In this document: positions 23,047 through 44,942 of the stretch, piece by piece | How the letters are laid out: each line of letters starts with the position of its first letter | Numbering within the stretch: position 1 is the stretch's first letter | Assembly: GCA_030770425.1 (NCBI GenBank) | Contig: JASJFT010000021.1 | Location: forward strand, 186,001 to 250,000 | Source of the DNA: Darksidea phi | Taxonomy: Eukaryota > Ascomycota > Dothideomycetes > Pleosporales > Lentitheciaceae | Length of the DNA: 64,000 nucleotides | Direction of reading: 5' to 3' | The notes under the pieces: model-generated | Database searches by the model: none | What the model saw: the letters and a program-made list of their open reading frames with translations, nothing else | Told to the model about the DNA's origin: nothing | Program-made: the position numbers and the translations under genes

Positions 23047-26000
23047 ATGGCGACGGGTGTCGACGACCTAGCTGATTATTTGCTTGCCGGCATCGCGCTT
23101 TTGGGAGTACAAGGTATGCATTGCCTCGCATCATAAACTGTCGCCTTTCTAAGTTTTTCCCCCCCATCGCGGGTTTTCCAGCTTACCGCTGGGAAGCTTG
23201 CCCATCCTCTGATTTTGATTTCCATGTTCGGACGCTTATCGCAGATCCAAGAACCCACTTTTCTGACTTCAAACTTCAGGTGCCGGCAGCAAAGAATTCC
23301 TTAAATTGCTTCACGACTACTACGAAGAGTCGCGGCAGGATGAGGCATCGTCTGCGAATCTGTTTGGCCCCAATCTCCCGCCCGAAGGTTTGACTCGTAG
23401 CTTCTATGAGAAAGTATGGGACTGGGTCACAGATCATCCCGACATCCGCATCTGCTACAAACAGGAAACCCCTAAGCTGTCTCTTTCCGAGTTTGAGGCT
23501 CTAGAAGCCCAAGCGGAAGATGGTAATTCAAATAGAGCTCGTACATATCAGCAATGGAAGCCTTCGATAACTCCGGCTGCCGCCGTGCAGCCGACACCTC
23601 GTCTTTCTGACACCTTGTTGTCGCTTGGTGGCTCATTGCGCCAACGACTATTGACTGACGGCTGCCAGCCGATCAAGATCCCTGCTCCACAGGCCGGTTT
23701 CGGAGTTTCCTACAACGCCTCTTCCAGCACTGCCCAACATCTGGAAGGAGGCCTCAATGATACCGAAGAAGTCGACCGTCGTGCATCGCAATTCCCGACG
23801 CCCGCTGGCTCAACGCTCCCGACATCTACACCGATACTCAACTCCCTTGACTCTGAGCCTAGGATTCATTCCAGACTACGCGGGCCTCGCAGCATACCCA
23901 AGGGGGTCATGGTTACAGAGCCAATATTCGACGAGCCACCATCATCCCTCGCTGTGCCTAGGCTTTTTGCTAGCCAGAACCGAGTTTGGCAAGCCCTCAC
24001 GGGCCATACGATGGATTTGAAGAAGGTTCCTGCCATGGAATTCGTGCTCCTTTGCATCATTGCAACCCACCGCTCAGATGGCATTACCCAGCCTGACCTG
24101 TCGAAGCTCAGTGGGCAAGACAAGAGATCGGTTCCGAAACGGACGGACGAGCTTGCTCGAAAAGGCTATATTTCCAAGAAGCCATACCAACATGGGGCGA
24201 TTCATACGAGCCTGTGCGTCCACAAGAAATATGACAAGGGAGAGGACATTCTATACAAGCCGCAAAGCATCGACGAGGTCTTTGGACCAAAGCGCTTCGT
24301 CTTGTCTGGCTTTATTTACTTTCTTCATAAACTTCTCGCAGAGGCTGGTGGTGTAATTCCAATGCGTGAATTAAGAATAAGACTGGTAATAGTTATATCC
24401 ACTTATACTTGAAGCCATACTAACGTTATAAGGGTGTGTCTGTCCGGCAATGGCATGGCAGAGCCGTTCGCGCGGCCATCACGCGTCTGTCGCAGACCGG
24501 TATGATCAAACGGGTGCAGACGCGCAGGAAAGGCAAGCCTGAGAGATACGTTATCTGCATCAAATTGCTCCGCGAGCCCATCGAGGACGACCTGAAGGGC
24601 TACAAATTCCGCCGCGGCGCACCTGAGGCCGAAGAGGCTAACGAGAATTTACTGGAGGATGATGTGGAGGGCGAGACCTTCATGCGTGATATGGAGTCTG
24701 ACCTGGCAGATGAAGTAGAGTCCAACAATGGCGATGGCAACGATGAGCTCGATCGCATTCCACCGCAATGGACGCCCGATCAGTCACTCGCCAATATGAT
24801 TGTCGATATTCTAAAGTTGTCTAGGACTGACGGAGGGGATTCTGATCTCCTGCGCGAGCGGACAATGGGCAAATTCTGGAAGCGTCCGCTCGAATCTTTC
24901 GTTTCTCGCTTGACAGACGATTGGGAACGGAGCCAGCCTTACCATCTTCATCACCTCGCTATCATTAGAGACAACGTGATCACAAAGGAGAAGAAATGCC
25001 TTCATTACGTCTATCGAACGTATGAGTACTACAAAAAAGCGGTCAAAGCAGGCGAGGTCCAAACTCCTCGAAAAAACTTAGATCCTCCGAATAATGTTTT
25101 CCTCGATGAATGGGGTTTCCTACCGCTTGCTATAGACGATTTTCATGGCCGCACGGGTTCGAGCACCTTAGTGGAGTGTCGCCCTGCTGCCACACGTGGC
25201 GGTGGATATGGCCCACAGTGGGACAAAAACATTACGACGAGGATGGGATACCAGAAACCCAAAAAGTCATGCGTCGTTGACGTTAAGACTCTGAACAGAA
25301 CCCTTCCCCCAACGCTCATCGCACAGCTGCAGCACAAAGCTGCGAAATCAAAACACGGCAAGGCTAAGATGACTACACAAGATAAAGAACCCACAAAGTC
25401 TGTCGCTAGTGACGCCAACCAATCGTCGCCGCCTTTACCCCACCACGTTGCCGATACTCGAGGGGCTTCTACGGAGACCGAAACATCTCGACCGAACATG
25501 CGCGTTAATAAAGGGAAACAGTGTGGTGGAAGCAACTCTGTACCACTACTGACAATGGATGAGAGAAGGAGTCTGGGCTTGCCACCAAGAGGACGGCTGG
25601 GTAAAGACATCGAGAACAAGATTCGACGAAGCCGTGGCGAGCCCATCAAGCCTGCACGGCCGACTAAACCACGATATCGGGGTTCGAGCGAAAAACCTCT
25701 GCTTACCATGGAGCAACGAGTAAAAATGGGTCTCCCTCGGACTGGAAGGCTTCCGGATGCCCTCGTTCAAGAACTGCGACGTAAGCGGGCCTTGGGTTTA
25801 TCACTGGATGATCCGCTGCCAGCTGGTGAGGACAGCCTAGGCCATCGGGGATTATCACTGGATGATCCGCTGCCAGCCGGTGAGGACAGCCTAGGCCATC
25901 GGGGAGAATGTGGACTAGAATTGGGCGATGACACCGATGACACTGATCACGTTGATGAGCCAGTGTTTGCGAACATGTCGTCGCTAATTCCATCCATCGA

Positions 26001-29000
26001 GCACTTTGCAAGCGCTTCGCCCCGTTCTTCTACGGCGAAGGGCAAGTCTCTGAAGCGTCGGGCCGAAGGCGATGGCGCAGACCCTCGGAAAATAACTAAG
26101 AGGGTGCGGCTAGGTTCCGATGTTTCTGAGGTTGTTCCGCAATCCGGAGCAGTGATTGCAGGCTCTGGGGCGAGCCTCCTTCCAGCGAAGCGTAGGCTTG
26201 AGGTCTCTATTAGTGATGCTAGAAAACCGCCGAAGAGATTGCGAGCAAGTCCACACGTGCCGTCGTCGACTCGATCATCGAAGAGGTACCGCAGGACTGA
26301 TGCTTCGTCCCCTATTCCAGCTGCCCGGGCGACTTTTTCAAGCACTGGTGAGCAACCTCTGGACGGCGTCGAGGCTTCCGATATAGAAACAACAGCCAGC
26401 ACTCCTATCTCAGACAATCTGCCTGACCAGCCTCTGAGCGAAGCAGAGATGCGAGTGGAACAGATTAAGACAAAGTATGCGAACAGGACTGATCCTGGCT
26501 TCTATTACAACCCATTCGCAACTCGGAAAACGCGCAGAGGTCGGCCGCCAAAAGTCTTTCTTGCCACCTTTAAGTTACCGCGTCTTCATGAGTTCTCTTG
26601 GTTTGCATCAGACCCGGCTGCGGTTAGTGGACGTTTTTCGCCACGCTTGGCTGCTCCCACTGGTGTCGCCATACAAAGCGAGCCTATAGATTTGCGAGGT
26701 GCAGGATCCAAACTGATTGTCATGGCTGATGCTGAGGCTGAAGTACGCGCCAACTCTCCAGGACTTGACGCGCCAGACGTGGAGCCTGCATTAACTGCCC
26801 CTCAATCAACAAAACCCCCAGCCCTCGAGGAGCTACCATTAGGGCCTCCGAGGTGTATTGAATTGCAGGTGGAGGCTTCGGCGCCTTCTGAAACTATTCT
26901 GGATATGGTGGAACCCTCGCCAATAGAGACGTCACTAGCTCCGGTAACGAAACCTCTGCAAAGTACCAACACCACTAGAGGAGATGCAGTCTCGCAGCAA
27001 CCATCCGTGACCAACGTTACGCAAGGATCGCTGGTTGACATCAGCTTGCATCAAAGCCACAATTCAAGTGAATCTCGACTAAGTCCAGCGGGCTGGAATG
27101 CCATCAACCTGCCGGCCAAAGGTTTATCCGCTCCGTATCAGAGCCCGTACGGTGCGTCATCGCTCGCCCGTTCTTCGCCACTTGCACTAGAAATAGAGGA
27201 AACGGGTGCCGTGCCCGCCCCAAAAGAAAGGTCTCGTTCCACTCGAAAGAACAAGAAAAGTGTCGGTGCTGGCGCGATCAAGCTAGCAAGCGGCAGCGTC
27301 CAATACACGCGTACCTCGATCATCAAACACATTCTCCAACTCTGCAATGGTGTTTTCCCAGGGAATGGGGAGATCGTTCCGGTCTTCGAAAGCATGTGGA
27401 AGGAGCGCGCACCAAAGAAAGTGGTCTGTCCGGATCGCGGCACTATCCTCAAAACCTTCGCAGATATGATTCGGGATCCAGCTCAGAACCTTCGAAAAAC
27501 GCTCATGTTGGTCCAGAGTATCGAAGTCGAGGCACCCGCGAAGAGGTATTACATCGCTTTTAACCATCTTGCAAATGACAGTCCCGAGATCCGCCGTATG
27601 AGGAGCGGTATAAGTCAGGCTTATCCAAGCAGATACTTCCCTCCCGAGGTCGCTCAATATGTCAATCCGGAGTCCAAGCCGAATTCGAAGCTTCCGCTTG
27701 AGATCGACGATACGATCAAGGTAGACGATCTCTTCCCTTCTAGAGCGAAGAGATTGAGCAAGAGCATTCAGGAACTTGCTCGATTAAGAAACGAAGATGC
27801 TAAGCAAAAGAAGCTGAAGAAGCAAGAAGAAGCGGAGCAGCGTAAGAAATGCAGTATGGAGGTGGAGAAGAGACAATTGGCAAACGTTAATTCGTCTGAG
27901 GGAGAAGCTCGTGAGAAGCGTATTAGATTGGTCGGGTTAAATCAACGGAAGCGTCTGCGTCTTCCTCAGGCTCCACCTGATTTGCAAAACCAAGGGCCAA
28001 GAGACAATTCTCCGGCGCCATCCGACTCGTCTGAAGATATTCCGCTATCGCTGCTTCGCCGGAGACATAGTCTGGGTGAGTCTACATCAGACGCTACCAT
28101 TATGCGCAACGAGTTCACCCTCTCTTCCGACGCAGAATTATCCTCTCACGATGACGACGACAATGAGGAAGAAGAATTATTGCCGCATACGCCATCACCT
28201 AGAGGGACCCCCCAGGTCGTATTCGAAAGGCGAATCGTGACGCTGCTAGCCCCCGCCACCTATTTCTACCCTCTCAGTGGTACATTCTCTACTGAATGCC
28301 ATTTGTCTAAGGAACAAGGTGATAATGCCGTTGATGTCGCCGCCAAGGTCGCCAAAATCCCCATCAACATATCATTGGTGCAGAAGAAGGGTCATAAACG
28401 GGTCACGATCGCGGAGCCGGCCGTTCAAGACCCCCCCAAGAAAGCGCATCAGACCAACCGGATCTCAAAAGTCAAGAGAGATGCTCTATATGTGGATATG
28501 AACGAGGGCTCTGGGGAAGACATTTTACATCTTGGACAAAAACGTAAACGTCAAAAGCCTATTCCTCTCTCCGATCCAACTTTGGTAGAACGCTTGACAG
28601 GTTTGACGGGAAATCCTAACGACCCCGACTATCAACCACCAACAAAGAAACGGAGGACCTGGATGACTTGGACCGAGAGAAAGAAGAGAGGTCGGGTTCG
28701 CGAAATGCCCGTCAAAAAGTACCCAGAGAGCCTAGACCCAGTTGACAGATTCAAAAAGCTTTGTTGTGCCTTGGTCGTGGCATCCAGCATGTCGGGAGAG
28801 GAGGGTATTGTGGACTGGGACATCATAGCGAGTGTCTACAGTGAGGACCGGTCTTTTGACTTGGCCAAAATCAAGAACACTTGGTCATGGATGCAAAAGC
28901 ATATGGTGGCTCAGCTTCACGAGTTAACGAAGGTGTTTCAGTCATCTTTTTTAGAAGCTTACGAAGAGGGCGCACTTGCCAGTATTGAGGATCCAAAGAC

Positions 29001-30672
29001 ATACGATTGGGCGAACTTGGTGCGCTGGGCCCTCCACCACTGCAAATACCCCGAACCATCACTTCCAACAGCACGCGAAGCTCTAGATGACTACGAAATC
29101 GATGTCTCACCCTTCGATGTAATTGACAGGCCTGTATGGTACAAGGAAGCTCTTTCGTCGTTAAATCGGACACAGCGGCTGCTCAAATACGCTTACGTAG
29201 CTCCTCTCCACCAGTTCAAAAAGCCTATGACACCAGCCGAAGAGCATGCACTGAAAGCTCGCTCCTGGATCCGTGCCAACATATCCACGCCGAAAGCCTT
29301 GTACGACAAAAAGAAGGCTCACGACAAGTTACGACCTCTTGGAGACTCAATCCTTGGGCAGGTGGTTTCCGACTTTGTGGAGGCGAAATTTCTGCGGTTA
29401 TGGAAACTCAAGCGTCTTCGACCAGGCCGCAATTATGACTTCGCCAGTGCCTTTGCCAAAAACTATAGACGTCCTTTAGAACTAAAGGATTTCATGGCTG
29501 CTGTGAAACTCAAGAAGAACCTCGACACTGCATTTGCGGAAGAGAACCCTGAAAAGCGCGCTTTCGCCATGTCTCGGTCTGCGGATGATGGCGCTGTCAT
29601 GGCAGTCATGTCGCTTGTTGGCGCAAGCCAGGTCAAACTGATCCCTAGGCTACCACCCATCAACAGCGACTTTAGTGCGCCGCTTCCACGGCTCTCAGTT
29701 TGGGGAATGTGCGAAGGCGACTACGTCAGCCGGCATATCGACCGGCAGCGTCTATTTTGGAAGATAGATGTCGTTCCAACGCCCACCTATCAATTCGGCA
29801 ACCCTCTTCAACCAACTCCTCTCCCTCTCGCCGCTAAAGATGATGGCTCACCCGCAGATTGGCCACCCCTTCCCGAACCTCCACTCCCTGGCCGCCACAG
29901 TCCCGATGCTCTCCTCCCAATCTGGAGCTCCATTGACGGTGGATCCGTCACCTGGCCATGGTGGAACCGCATACTTAGTCTCGTCCTGCAAACCTTAATC
30001 TTTCAGCCTGGTGTTACAGCCGCCGAGATTTTCCGCCACTGCCCCAAGCACACGACTGAGACATTTGAGATTGAACTCGTACTTGATTGGCTTGAGGCTG
30101 TCGGGGCTGTGCAGCGATCCGACCATGGCACATACAATGTCCTGCCGGGCTTCTGGGCTGCGTTTGGCGATAGGCTTATTGGCGAGGAGGAGGATGGGTT
30201 TGGCGAGTACGTGAAGAGGAAGGCTACGAACAAAAAAATATCGGAGCCGACATGGAGGTCGGTGTACAATACGAGGTACTCAACAATGCAACAAGCGGTT
30301 GGTGTGGGGTTTGATGCAAGCACGAGCGAGGATGAAGATGATGTGCACGGAATGCCGGCTGCGCAAGAGCAGATTGTCAAGAAACCAAGGAAGCAGTATC
30401 ACATTGCAAAAAAAGCTCTTGAAACTCCGGTGGCGCGTCGTAGGCGAGCATCGCAGCAGAATGTGGCGGCGCCAGAACCTCGGGCTCATGCTCAGCAACC
30501 GTTGCTTGAGTCACCGATCGATCCTACGCTCTCGAGTGTTTCACCAACACCGCCAACTCAGGACGTGCATATGATGGATCCGAATCTAGAGACAGGGAGA
30601 GAGGATGTGGATGCAGAGGGTGAGTGGGATGACGAGTTCGCCATTGGCACGAGCATGAATGTGGGCAACTAG
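23047..30672 (+). CDS. TFIIIC B-block-binding subunit (Tfc3/Sfc3-like)
   Basis: Subunit of RNA polymerase III factor TFIIIC, which binds the B box of tRNA genes. Exons: 23047-23113, 23280-24385, 24433-30672. The phases agree, giving 2470 aa. Exon 1 (MATGVDDLADYLLAGIALLG) matches the N-terminal helix of the family. A winged-helix B-block domain lies at roughly residues 260-350 (MEFVLLCIIATHRSDGITQ, then LSKLSGQDKRSVPKRTDELA), and a second winged helix spans the junction into exon 3. The middle is long, basic and disordered, with two copies of a motif around LLTM(D/E)..R..GLP..GRL and an AT-hook-like RGRPPK. The C-terminal third is folded and conserved-looking, with a last helical domain around 29.9-30.2 kb. 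It is long for the family, chiefly through the disordered middle. Intron 1 is unusually long here (166 nt). Confidence 0.87.
25798..25905. repeat. 54-bp tandem duplication, two copies, inside the TFIIIC gene
   Basis: Two adjacent 54-bp copies differ at a single base (GCT/GCC). They encode an 18-residue unit (LSLDDPLPAGEDSLGHRG) twice in frame. Near-identity implies a recent duplication in a disordered segment. Confidence 0.95.
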
Positions 30673-44422: not shown

Positions 44423-44666
44423 GCTAGGGTGGAGGTGATCCCATAATAAGAGCATGACGACGAGAACGGAGGCCCGTTGATGCATAGGGCGGCGTTTGGA
44501 TGCAGGCATTTTCTGGAGTTTGCGCAGATAGTAGTGTATTCTACTAGCTACTAGATATCTGATGCCAAATGCAAGGAGCATAGGGATGCGAATAGACCTT
44601 ATAATGTGGACTCCTACGATAAAATCTACACGAAGAAAAAAAAACCCATAAAAATAAAAAATAAAT

Positions 44667-44799
44667 TGACCGTGCCAGGGGTCGAACCTGGAATCTAGAG
44701 CCGAGTTAGTATAAGTAAGTAGGGTAAGACTTAACTCTACATACCTCTTGATCACATATATCATCGTAGTCAAGCGCCTTGGCATTTCCCCACACGGGG
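44667..44799 (-). tRNA. tRNA-Arg(ACG)-like gene with an anticodon-loop intron and a 50-nt spliceosomal-type insert; possibly a pseudogene
   Basis: The minus strand gives a perfect 3' half: T-arm CCAGG-TTCGACC-CCTGG (B box GGTTCGACCC), acceptor strand CACGGTC, discriminator A, then a T-rich tract suited to Pol III termination. The anticodon stem CTTGA/TCAAG encloses CTACGA and then 12 more bases. This gives anticodon ACG plus a probable 11-nt tRNA intron after position 37. Between the AG after the anticodon stem and ATTCCAGG lie 50 extra bases (44,744-44,695). The 5' half is weaker: acceptor pairs 3-7 fit (CCGTG), pairs 1-2 do not (CC opposite TC), and the D-stem (GGG against GGC) does not pair. 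The A box is poor. So it is either a decayed tRNA-Arg or a variant one. Confidence 0.6.
44695..44744 (-). other. 50-nt spliceosomal-intron-like insert within the tRNA variable loop
   Basis: On the minus strand the insert begins GTATGT, has TACTAAC ending 10 nt before its 3' end, and ends CTCTAG. These are consensus 5' site, branch point and 3' site for a fungal nuclear intron, at a typical length. Exact removal joins TCAAGAG to ATTCCAGG and yields the standard five-base variable loop AGATT. Ordinary tRNA introns lie after position 37 and are cut by the tRNA endonuclease, not here. Confidence 0.7.
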
Positions 44800-44942
44800 G
44801 AATTTGAAAAAATTTGTAGATACAAATATATGATCGTATGGAAATTTTGCAGAGGGGCACACAGGGAAAATGTGGGGACTGCCTCCTCACCCAATCACTA
44901 GCAATATGTATGGCATTTTGTAAAGTTAGTAGCAGGATATCT

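Follow-up and report, generated by a model that had tools for sequence, protein, structure and literature searches.

Thirteen tRNA genes in the 51-Mb genome of the fungus Darksidea phi carry a total of 15 inserts of spliceosomal type. To judge from their sequence, these inserts are very probably U2-type spliceosomal introns that were gained in many nuclear tRNA genes of this member of the Pleosporales. One of them lies in the window, the 64,000-nt stretch of contig JASJFT010000021.1 that was analysed here, where it interrupts a tRNA-Arg(ACG)-like gene. A sequence-only reading of the window had proposed a spliceosomal-type intron at this place, and the 12 further tRNA genes in which the same kind of insert was found elsewhere in the genome support that proposal. 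The window also encodes a WD40 protein with 88-90% identity to its counterparts in Massarina, Paraphaeosphaeria and Lindgomyces, which are Pleosporales.

The features of the window locus are as follows:

44667..44799, minus strand: tRNA-Arg(ACG)-like gene, interrupted twice and probably decayed; T-arm and anticodon arm fully paired, 5/7 pairs in the acceptor and 1/4 in the D-stem, not recognised by ARAGORN
44695..44744, minus strand: 50-nt intron of spliceosomal type (GTATGT...TAG), placed in the variable loop with AG (44746-44745) before it and ATT (44694-44692) after it
44705..44711, minus strand: TACTAAC, similar to a branch site, whose branch A (44706) lies 11 nt before the 3' splice site
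44753..44763, minus strand: 11-nt canonical tRNA intron after base 37 (cloverleaf parse)
44765..44767, minus strand: anticodon ACG (cloverleaf parse)
44793..44799, minus strand: 5' acceptor strand CCCCGTG, positions 1-2 unpaired with CACGGTC (44674-44668)
44675..44691, minus strand: perfect T-arm with B box GGTTCGACCCC
44656..44661, minus strand: downstream T6 run, Pol III terminator-like

On the minus strand, the layout is CCCCGTG-TG-(D arm)-CTTGA-CTACGA-(TGATATATGTG)-A-TCAAG-AG-(50 nt)-ATT-CCAGG-TTCGACC-CCTGG-CACGGTC-A. The sequence-only reading had described the variable-loop insert (GTATGT...TACTAAC...CTCTAG) correctly to the base: the insert ends in CTCTAG, with TACTAAC 10 nt before the end, and its deletion links 44745 to 44694 and restores the five-base variable loop, AGATT. 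The 11-nt intron of the anticodon loop (44763-44753) and the damage to the 5' half were also as described. After intron removal, no full cloverleaf is obtained from this copy (five of seven acceptor pairs, one of four D-stem pairs), and its A box is altered (by eye). ARAGORN detects no tRNA on the sense strand of the locus, spliced or unspliced, and in an Rfam scan of the window, no family reaches its gathering score. The 3' half equals that of an uninserted relic on C423, while the 5' half carries several changes, many of them exchanges between C and G, which disrupt the acceptor and the D-stem. Since the 5' half is broken, the copy is probably dead, and the doubt of the first reading about a decaying tRNA was well placed. 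We think that it is a dying Arg(ACG) gene that gained a variable-loop intron of its own; in our judgement, it is unlikely to make a tRNA. Over a short stretch, the damaged 5' half is nearly palindromic (window 44780-44810, TTCCCC..GGGGAA), which, together with the C/G changes, suggests a palindrome-correcting mutation, unlike the G-to-A decay of the C423 relic (by eye).

Four occurrences of the window T-arm (21-nt pattern, up to 2 mismatches) are present in the 51.35-Mb assembly of 477 contigs. The count of intact tRNA-Arg(ACG) genes, a check proposed with the first reading, comes to two among the copies found. Both are on C9, and in each, a 51-nt insert (GTAAGT...TCTAATCTCC..GTAG), different from the window insert, separates base 30 from base 31; the tRNA score rises from 26 unspliced to 56.5 spliced. 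These two genes (C9:109963 and C9:124622) are inverted copies of each other, separated by about 15 kb, with 98% identity over 153 nt. The C423 relic (C423:524426), with its decayed 5' half, is continuous across the window junction and has the same flanking bases, and the C9 copies, too, run ungapped across this junction. As functional Arg(ACG) genes, C423, C239 and C124:101303 were rejected, all being degenerate. No intact uninterrupted Arg(ACG) gene was found genome-wide, either with a 5'-half pattern (3 mismatches, five places) or with an anticodon-arm pattern (three places).

A first genome search, with a pattern of branch site and 3' splice site upstream of the B box, gave seven places, five of them in tRNA genes; the reversed pattern gave 10 matches, so the tRNA context and not the count is the evidence. 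The survey itself relied on the B box GGTTCGANNCC followed by VTTTT within 35 nt, with all genome matches listed, and is complete only for this B box with a nearby T4, other B boxes being outside its scope. Its 84 entries correspond to 62 distinct places (hand count): 24 uninterrupted genes, 12 interrupted genes, the window copy, two relics (C103 and C423), one mitochondrial gene and 22 places that are non-tRNA or ambiguous, including the tRNA-Ser-like C158 and C425 as well as C252. For this one B-box type, 12 of the 36 intact tRNA genes surveyed are interrupted. The matches on C91 and C458 proved not to be tRNAs. Together with the window copy, the third Arg(ACG) of the set, the interrupted genes are those below, each of which gives a cloverleaf when spliced:

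C9: Arg(ACG), two genes
C78: Val(CAC)
C79: Ala(AGC)
C85: Leu(CAA), two introns
C177: Ile(AAT)
C190: Leu(TAG)
C335 and C440: Glu(CTC), one gene each
C432: Arg(TCT), two introns
C436: Lys(TTT)
C445: Glu(TTC)

The inserts occupy different places of the cloverleaf, and the canonical 37/38 intron is also present in 10 of the 13 genes. Nuclear genes for Phe, Pro, Trp, Gly(GCC), Val(AAC), Val(TAC), Gln(TTG) and Ser(CGA) were not found in any form by this incomplete survey; some of them, such as those for Phe, Pro, Trp, Gly-GCC and Val-AAC, may likewise contain inserts. The site C252:31575 may be a further interrupted tRNA gene: a T-arm, acceptor-like ends and TTAAC...CTAG directly before GTTCGA are seen at C252:31580-31860, and a cloverleaf parse was unsuccessful.

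The 15 inserts are 47-57 nt long (mean 51.2, sd 2.2) and have the signals of U2-type introns, namely GT...AG ends with a fungal 5' splice site and a branch motif near the 3' site. The 5' sites are GTAAGT (seven), GTACGT (two), GTAAGC (two) and GTATGT, GTTAGT, GTACGA and GTTAGA (one each), and the 3' ends are TAG (nine), CAG (four) and AAG (two). The branch motif CTRAY is found in 14 of 15, with TTAAC in Lys(TTT), and a branch-like A lies 9-12 nt from the 3' end in all; several loci were found by a pattern demanding CTAAY, most by a pattern that did not. In length, the inserts resemble the messenger RNA introns of the species, the comparison set being a single intron: it interrupts a protein gene of the window, was confirmed through homologous proteins, measures 56 nt and reads GTAAGT...CAG, like the tRNA inserts, with CTAAG rather than CTRAY at the branch position.

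All 15 inserts have GT...AG ends, which were demanded when the genes were cut by hand; the independent check is a deletion search blind to splice signals. For each T-arm site with a tRNA score below 45 (45 of 71 sites), it sought the deletion of 35-75 nt after which the remaining sequence scores best as a tRNA. The ten best sites (scores of at least 52.5, the next being 48.6) are all within the interrupted genes, and at nine of them, GT...AG is among the two or three tied boundaries. Assuming independent sites, nine out of ten would be expected by chance with a probability of about 1e-18; the two C9 sites, being duplicates, are not independent. At the tenth best site, the D-loop insert of Val(CAC), the blind optimum (56.0) is not GT-AG, and the GT-AG cut scores 54.0. 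For Arg(TCT), the blind test recovers GT-AG for intron 2 when the other intron is removed; intron 1 gives a many-way tie in the D-loop, and the first six cuts among those listed are not GT-AG. In Leu(CAA), with the 5' site GTTAGA, one anticodon-stem mismatch and a spliced score of 48.7, the blind search favours other cuts, so this is the weakest gene of the set. In Ile(AAT), the T-stem contains one mismatch and the intron ends in AAG. Apart from these two mismatches, the 12 genes other than the window copy form a full cloverleaf after splicing.

Removal of the inserts changes the tRNA scores strongly in Glu(TTC) (57 spliced vs. 4 unspliced), the Glu(CTC) gene of C440 (56 vs. 16) and Ala (52.5 vs. 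21). ARAGORN reports a tRNA in 12 of the 13 spliced genes, all but the window copy, with a wrong anticodon in three (the two C9 copies and Ala); when given the unspliced genes, it misses nine of 13 with a maximum intron length of 60 nt and seven of 13 with a maximum of 120 nt. Likewise, the Rfam tRNA cut-off is passed by all four uninterrupted controls (46-52 bits) and by only two of eight interrupted loci (31 and 36 bits).

Closely related genes without the insert are present in the same genome. The Ala(AGC) gene on C79, with a 54-nt T-stem intron, and the one on C429, with none, are identical outside the canonical intron. The same holds for the Glu(CTC) genes of C335 and C440, whose introns of 51 and 50 nt occupy the same T-stem site, and the uninserted gene of C198; the two Glu(CTC) introns are alike only at the level of shuffled sequences (z 1.0). 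Ile(AAT) on C177 differs from the uninterrupted gene on C101 in two exon bases. The insertion boundaries are therefore fixed by these pairs, which point to recent intron gains. Introner-like elements, which occur in Dothideomycetes, form near-identical families. Such elements (van der Burgt et al. 2012, as cited in a passage of PMC11889510) likewise represent recent spliceosomal intron gain in fungi, but here, no two tRNA introns are clearly alike except for the C9 duplicate: among the 105 pairs of the 15 introns, this pair stands out (z 13), and the next best reaches z 3.2. The window and C9 introns, searched genome-wide, have no further copies beyond the C9 duplicate. An introner family was thus rejected, and the introner-like origin that the first reading had considered is not supported.

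Dependence on the interrupted genes is suggested by the searches for uninterrupted copies. Pattern and spliced-exon searches of the genome failed to reveal an uninterrupted gene for Arg(ACG), Arg(TCT), Lys(TTT), Glu(TTC), Leu(TAG) or Val(CAC). The spliced exons of the last five and of Leu(CAA) gave 14 matches in the genome: their own interrupted genes, the related Arg(TCG) on C212 and Leu(CAG) on C439, and one Leu(CAA) relic on C140. The latter (C140:69124) looks by eye like a Leu(CAA) 3' half without intron 2. This search was sensitive enough to reach Leu(CAG) at 75% identity and is word-based, so that a divergent copy may have been missed. The survey is incomplete and some isoacceptors are missing in any form; uninterrupted copies of the six could therefore be missed. 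The codons concerned are in regular use in six ORFs of the window (CGT 81, CGC 105, CGA 70, AGA 60, AAA 141, GAA 198, GTG 108 and CTA 91 out of 6575). With no uninterrupted gene found for these six isoacceptors, spliceosomal removal of the inserts would be needed for translation. Uninserted genes exist for Ala(AGC), Glu(CTC) and Ile(AAT); therefore, not every interrupted gene is needed. It is fairly probable, on the genomic evidence, that tRNA production in this lineage is spliceosome-dependent, with Arg-ACG, Arg-TCT, Lys-TTT, Glu-TTC and others encoded only as Pol III genes with a spliceosomal intron, most of them also needing the endonuclease: two splicing systems would then act on one precursor.

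The insertions could also be real and intron-like, with every interrupted gene dead and the tRNAs made by uninterrupted genes elsewhere that were missed or are unassembled. The decay of the window copy, the three isoacceptors with uninterrupted genes, the limits of the survey and the division of the assembly into 477 contigs are in line with this explanation. Yet, 11 of the 12 other genes score 52.5-58.5 when spliced, which falls between the lowest and highest scores of the 24 uninterrupted genes (51.2 and 61); the exception is Leu(CAA). Moreover, the exons of Ala and Glu(CTC) are identical to those of uninserted copies, and the searches above gave no uninterrupted gene for the six isoacceptors (for Arg(ACG), by pattern searches). 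Dead genes should also lose their splice signals, but exons and signals are intact in the interrupted genes other than the window copy. This makes the explanation quite unlikely.

Less probable still is that the tRNA endonuclease cuts the inserts, which would then be non-canonical tRNA introns of the type seen in some archaea and in the red alga Cyanidioschyzon merolae. According to passages of PMC3978253, those organisms have tRNA introns at many cloverleaf positions; the ectopic tRNA introns of algae are mediated by bulge-helix-bulge (BHB) motifs, which are ill-defined in the Guillardia theta nucleomorph. The inserts here resemble the ectopic introns of C. merolae and the G. theta nucleomorph in lying outside 37/38 and affecting many tRNA genes, but unlike the BHB-mediated introns of C. 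merolae, as presented in the same passages, they have no BHB motif. At the junctions of the 15 inserts, on average 5.1 of 12 BHB pairs are formed, vs. 4.6 (sd 1.7) when junctions are chosen at random. The 31 canonical introns tested from this genome, of which 10 belong to interrupted genes, give 7.9, a value that is partly built in because their outer helix is the anticodon stem by position. The central helix alone gives 1.3 of four pairs for the inserts vs. 2.4 for the canonical introns. A uniform length, GT-AG ends and a branch site would also be unexpected of endonuclease introns. Endonuclease introns were, thus, rejected, the junctions of the inserts lacking the bulge-helix-bulge structure. 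Like canonical eukaryotic tRNA introns, which lie at 37/38 and are removed by the tRNA endonuclease, the inserts are introns in tRNA genes, and 10 of the 13 genes have both kinds; unlike them, they are found at other positions and have GT-AG and branch signals.

The idea that the window feature is a tRNA fragment beside unrelated DNA that looks like an intron by chance has hardly any probability left: the degenerate 5' half, a spliced score (32.5) no better than the unspliced one (32.6) and a blind search that prefers an unrelated cut (42.65), as it does because the 5' half is broken, would fit it, but it is contradicted by the uninserted C423 relic with the same flanking bases through the junction and by the same kind of insert in twelve other genes. 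The refutation named in the first reading, that the 50 nt are flanking DNA, fails for the same reason, because uninserted copies are continuous across the junction. A strict intron consensus (GTRNGT, CTRAC, YAG; 45-75 nt) is matched at seven places in the window, including the insert, and at two to six places in each of five shuffled windows (both strands), so such matches are not rare window-wide; a match whose ends fall by chance exactly at the tRNA junction is very unlikely.

Spliceosomal introns, thus, remain the preferred reading, and we infer that the interrupted genes are transcribed, that the spliceosome excises their inserts and that they are functional. Pol III, directed by the A and B boxes, would transcribe an interrupted gene, the spliceosome would excise the 47-57 nt GT-AG intron via a lariat, and the tRNA endonuclease and ligase would separately take out the canonical 37/38 intron where it is present. 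The intact supply of Arg(ACG) would be the C9 pair, with the intron at 30/31, the window copy probably contributing nothing. The insert sites appear compatible with the A and B box cores (by eye, on too few sites). A TATA-like stretch is found within 60 nt upstream of 12 of the 13 interrupted genes (absent in Arg(TCT)), a count without a control set, and a downstream T-run follows all 13, as the survey patterns demand. No avoidance of Pol III terminators could be demonstrated: none of the 14 distinct introns contains TTTT, with P = 0.24 in dinucleotide shuffles (0.015 in mononucleotide shuffles). Avoidance of T4 runs was dropped as evidence of transcription, as none of the seven strict intron-like matches in the window has TTTT either.

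Some fungal U6 snRNA genes carry spliceosomal introns. As in these genes, mRNA-type introns are found here in small RNA genes transcribed by Pol III, but while U6 is a single gene, many tRNA genes are concerned here, and only one U6 gene, without an intron, was found in this genome. In ascomycetes and lichen fungi, spliceosomal introns have also been described from nuclear rRNA genes (Bhattacharya et al. 2000 and Cubero et al. 2000, both as cited in PMC11889510; PMC8527467), and according to a passage of PMC8527467, yeast removed a 57-bp spliceosomal intron of an rRNA gene from Pol I rRNA. As far as these passages go, the rRNA-gene introns and the inserts are both short, mRNA-type introns in structural RNAs not made by Pol II; the former are hosted by rDNA, whereas the latter are in tRNA genes of many isoacceptors, often together with an endonuclease-type intron. 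In a 2026 review (PMC13149111), tRNA splicing is described, in the part consulted, as a process that does not depend on the spliceosome. In the open-licence PMC literature (titles, abstracts and some passages), we found no description of tRNA genes with spliceosomal introns, and the parts consulted of PMC11782384, PMC10161547, PMC4035089, PMC4494063, PMC6461891, PMC8393795, PMC12730881 and PMC2770079 report no such introns. The splicing mechanism is already known; the substrate class, tRNA genes, and the extent appear to be new. If true, this would break the rule that tRNA splicing is spliceosome-independent and suggest that Pol III transcripts can be routine substrates of the spliceosome. The genome would also be a natural model in which to study recent intron gain where no reading frame constrains the site. 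Furthermore, interrupted genes would be overlooked by annotation programs, explaining tRNA genes missing from fungal annotations.

Several other features were noticed in the window and in the surveyed loci. About 14 kb from the tRNA copy, the window encodes, at 23306-30672 on the plus strand, a protein with a TFIIIC B-block binding domain (Pfam PF04182); TFIIIC is a factor that recognises the B box in tRNA genes. The ORF next to it carries DUF6581 and is probably part of the same gene, after an intron. Sequences similar to tRNA-Ser are present at C425:82420-82690, at C158:12980-13250 and beside the Arg relic on C239; those on C425 and C158 have an encoded CCA end (GGAGGGATGGTCGAGTGGTGT...CTCCCTCCACCA in C425), which is odd for a fungal nucleus. 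Finally, the intron of Ile(AAT) on C177 (48370-48650) contains, just before its GAAAAG 3' end, the sequence ACTGACCA, identical to the last eight bases of its own tRNA. This repeat is possibly a trace of the intron's origin.
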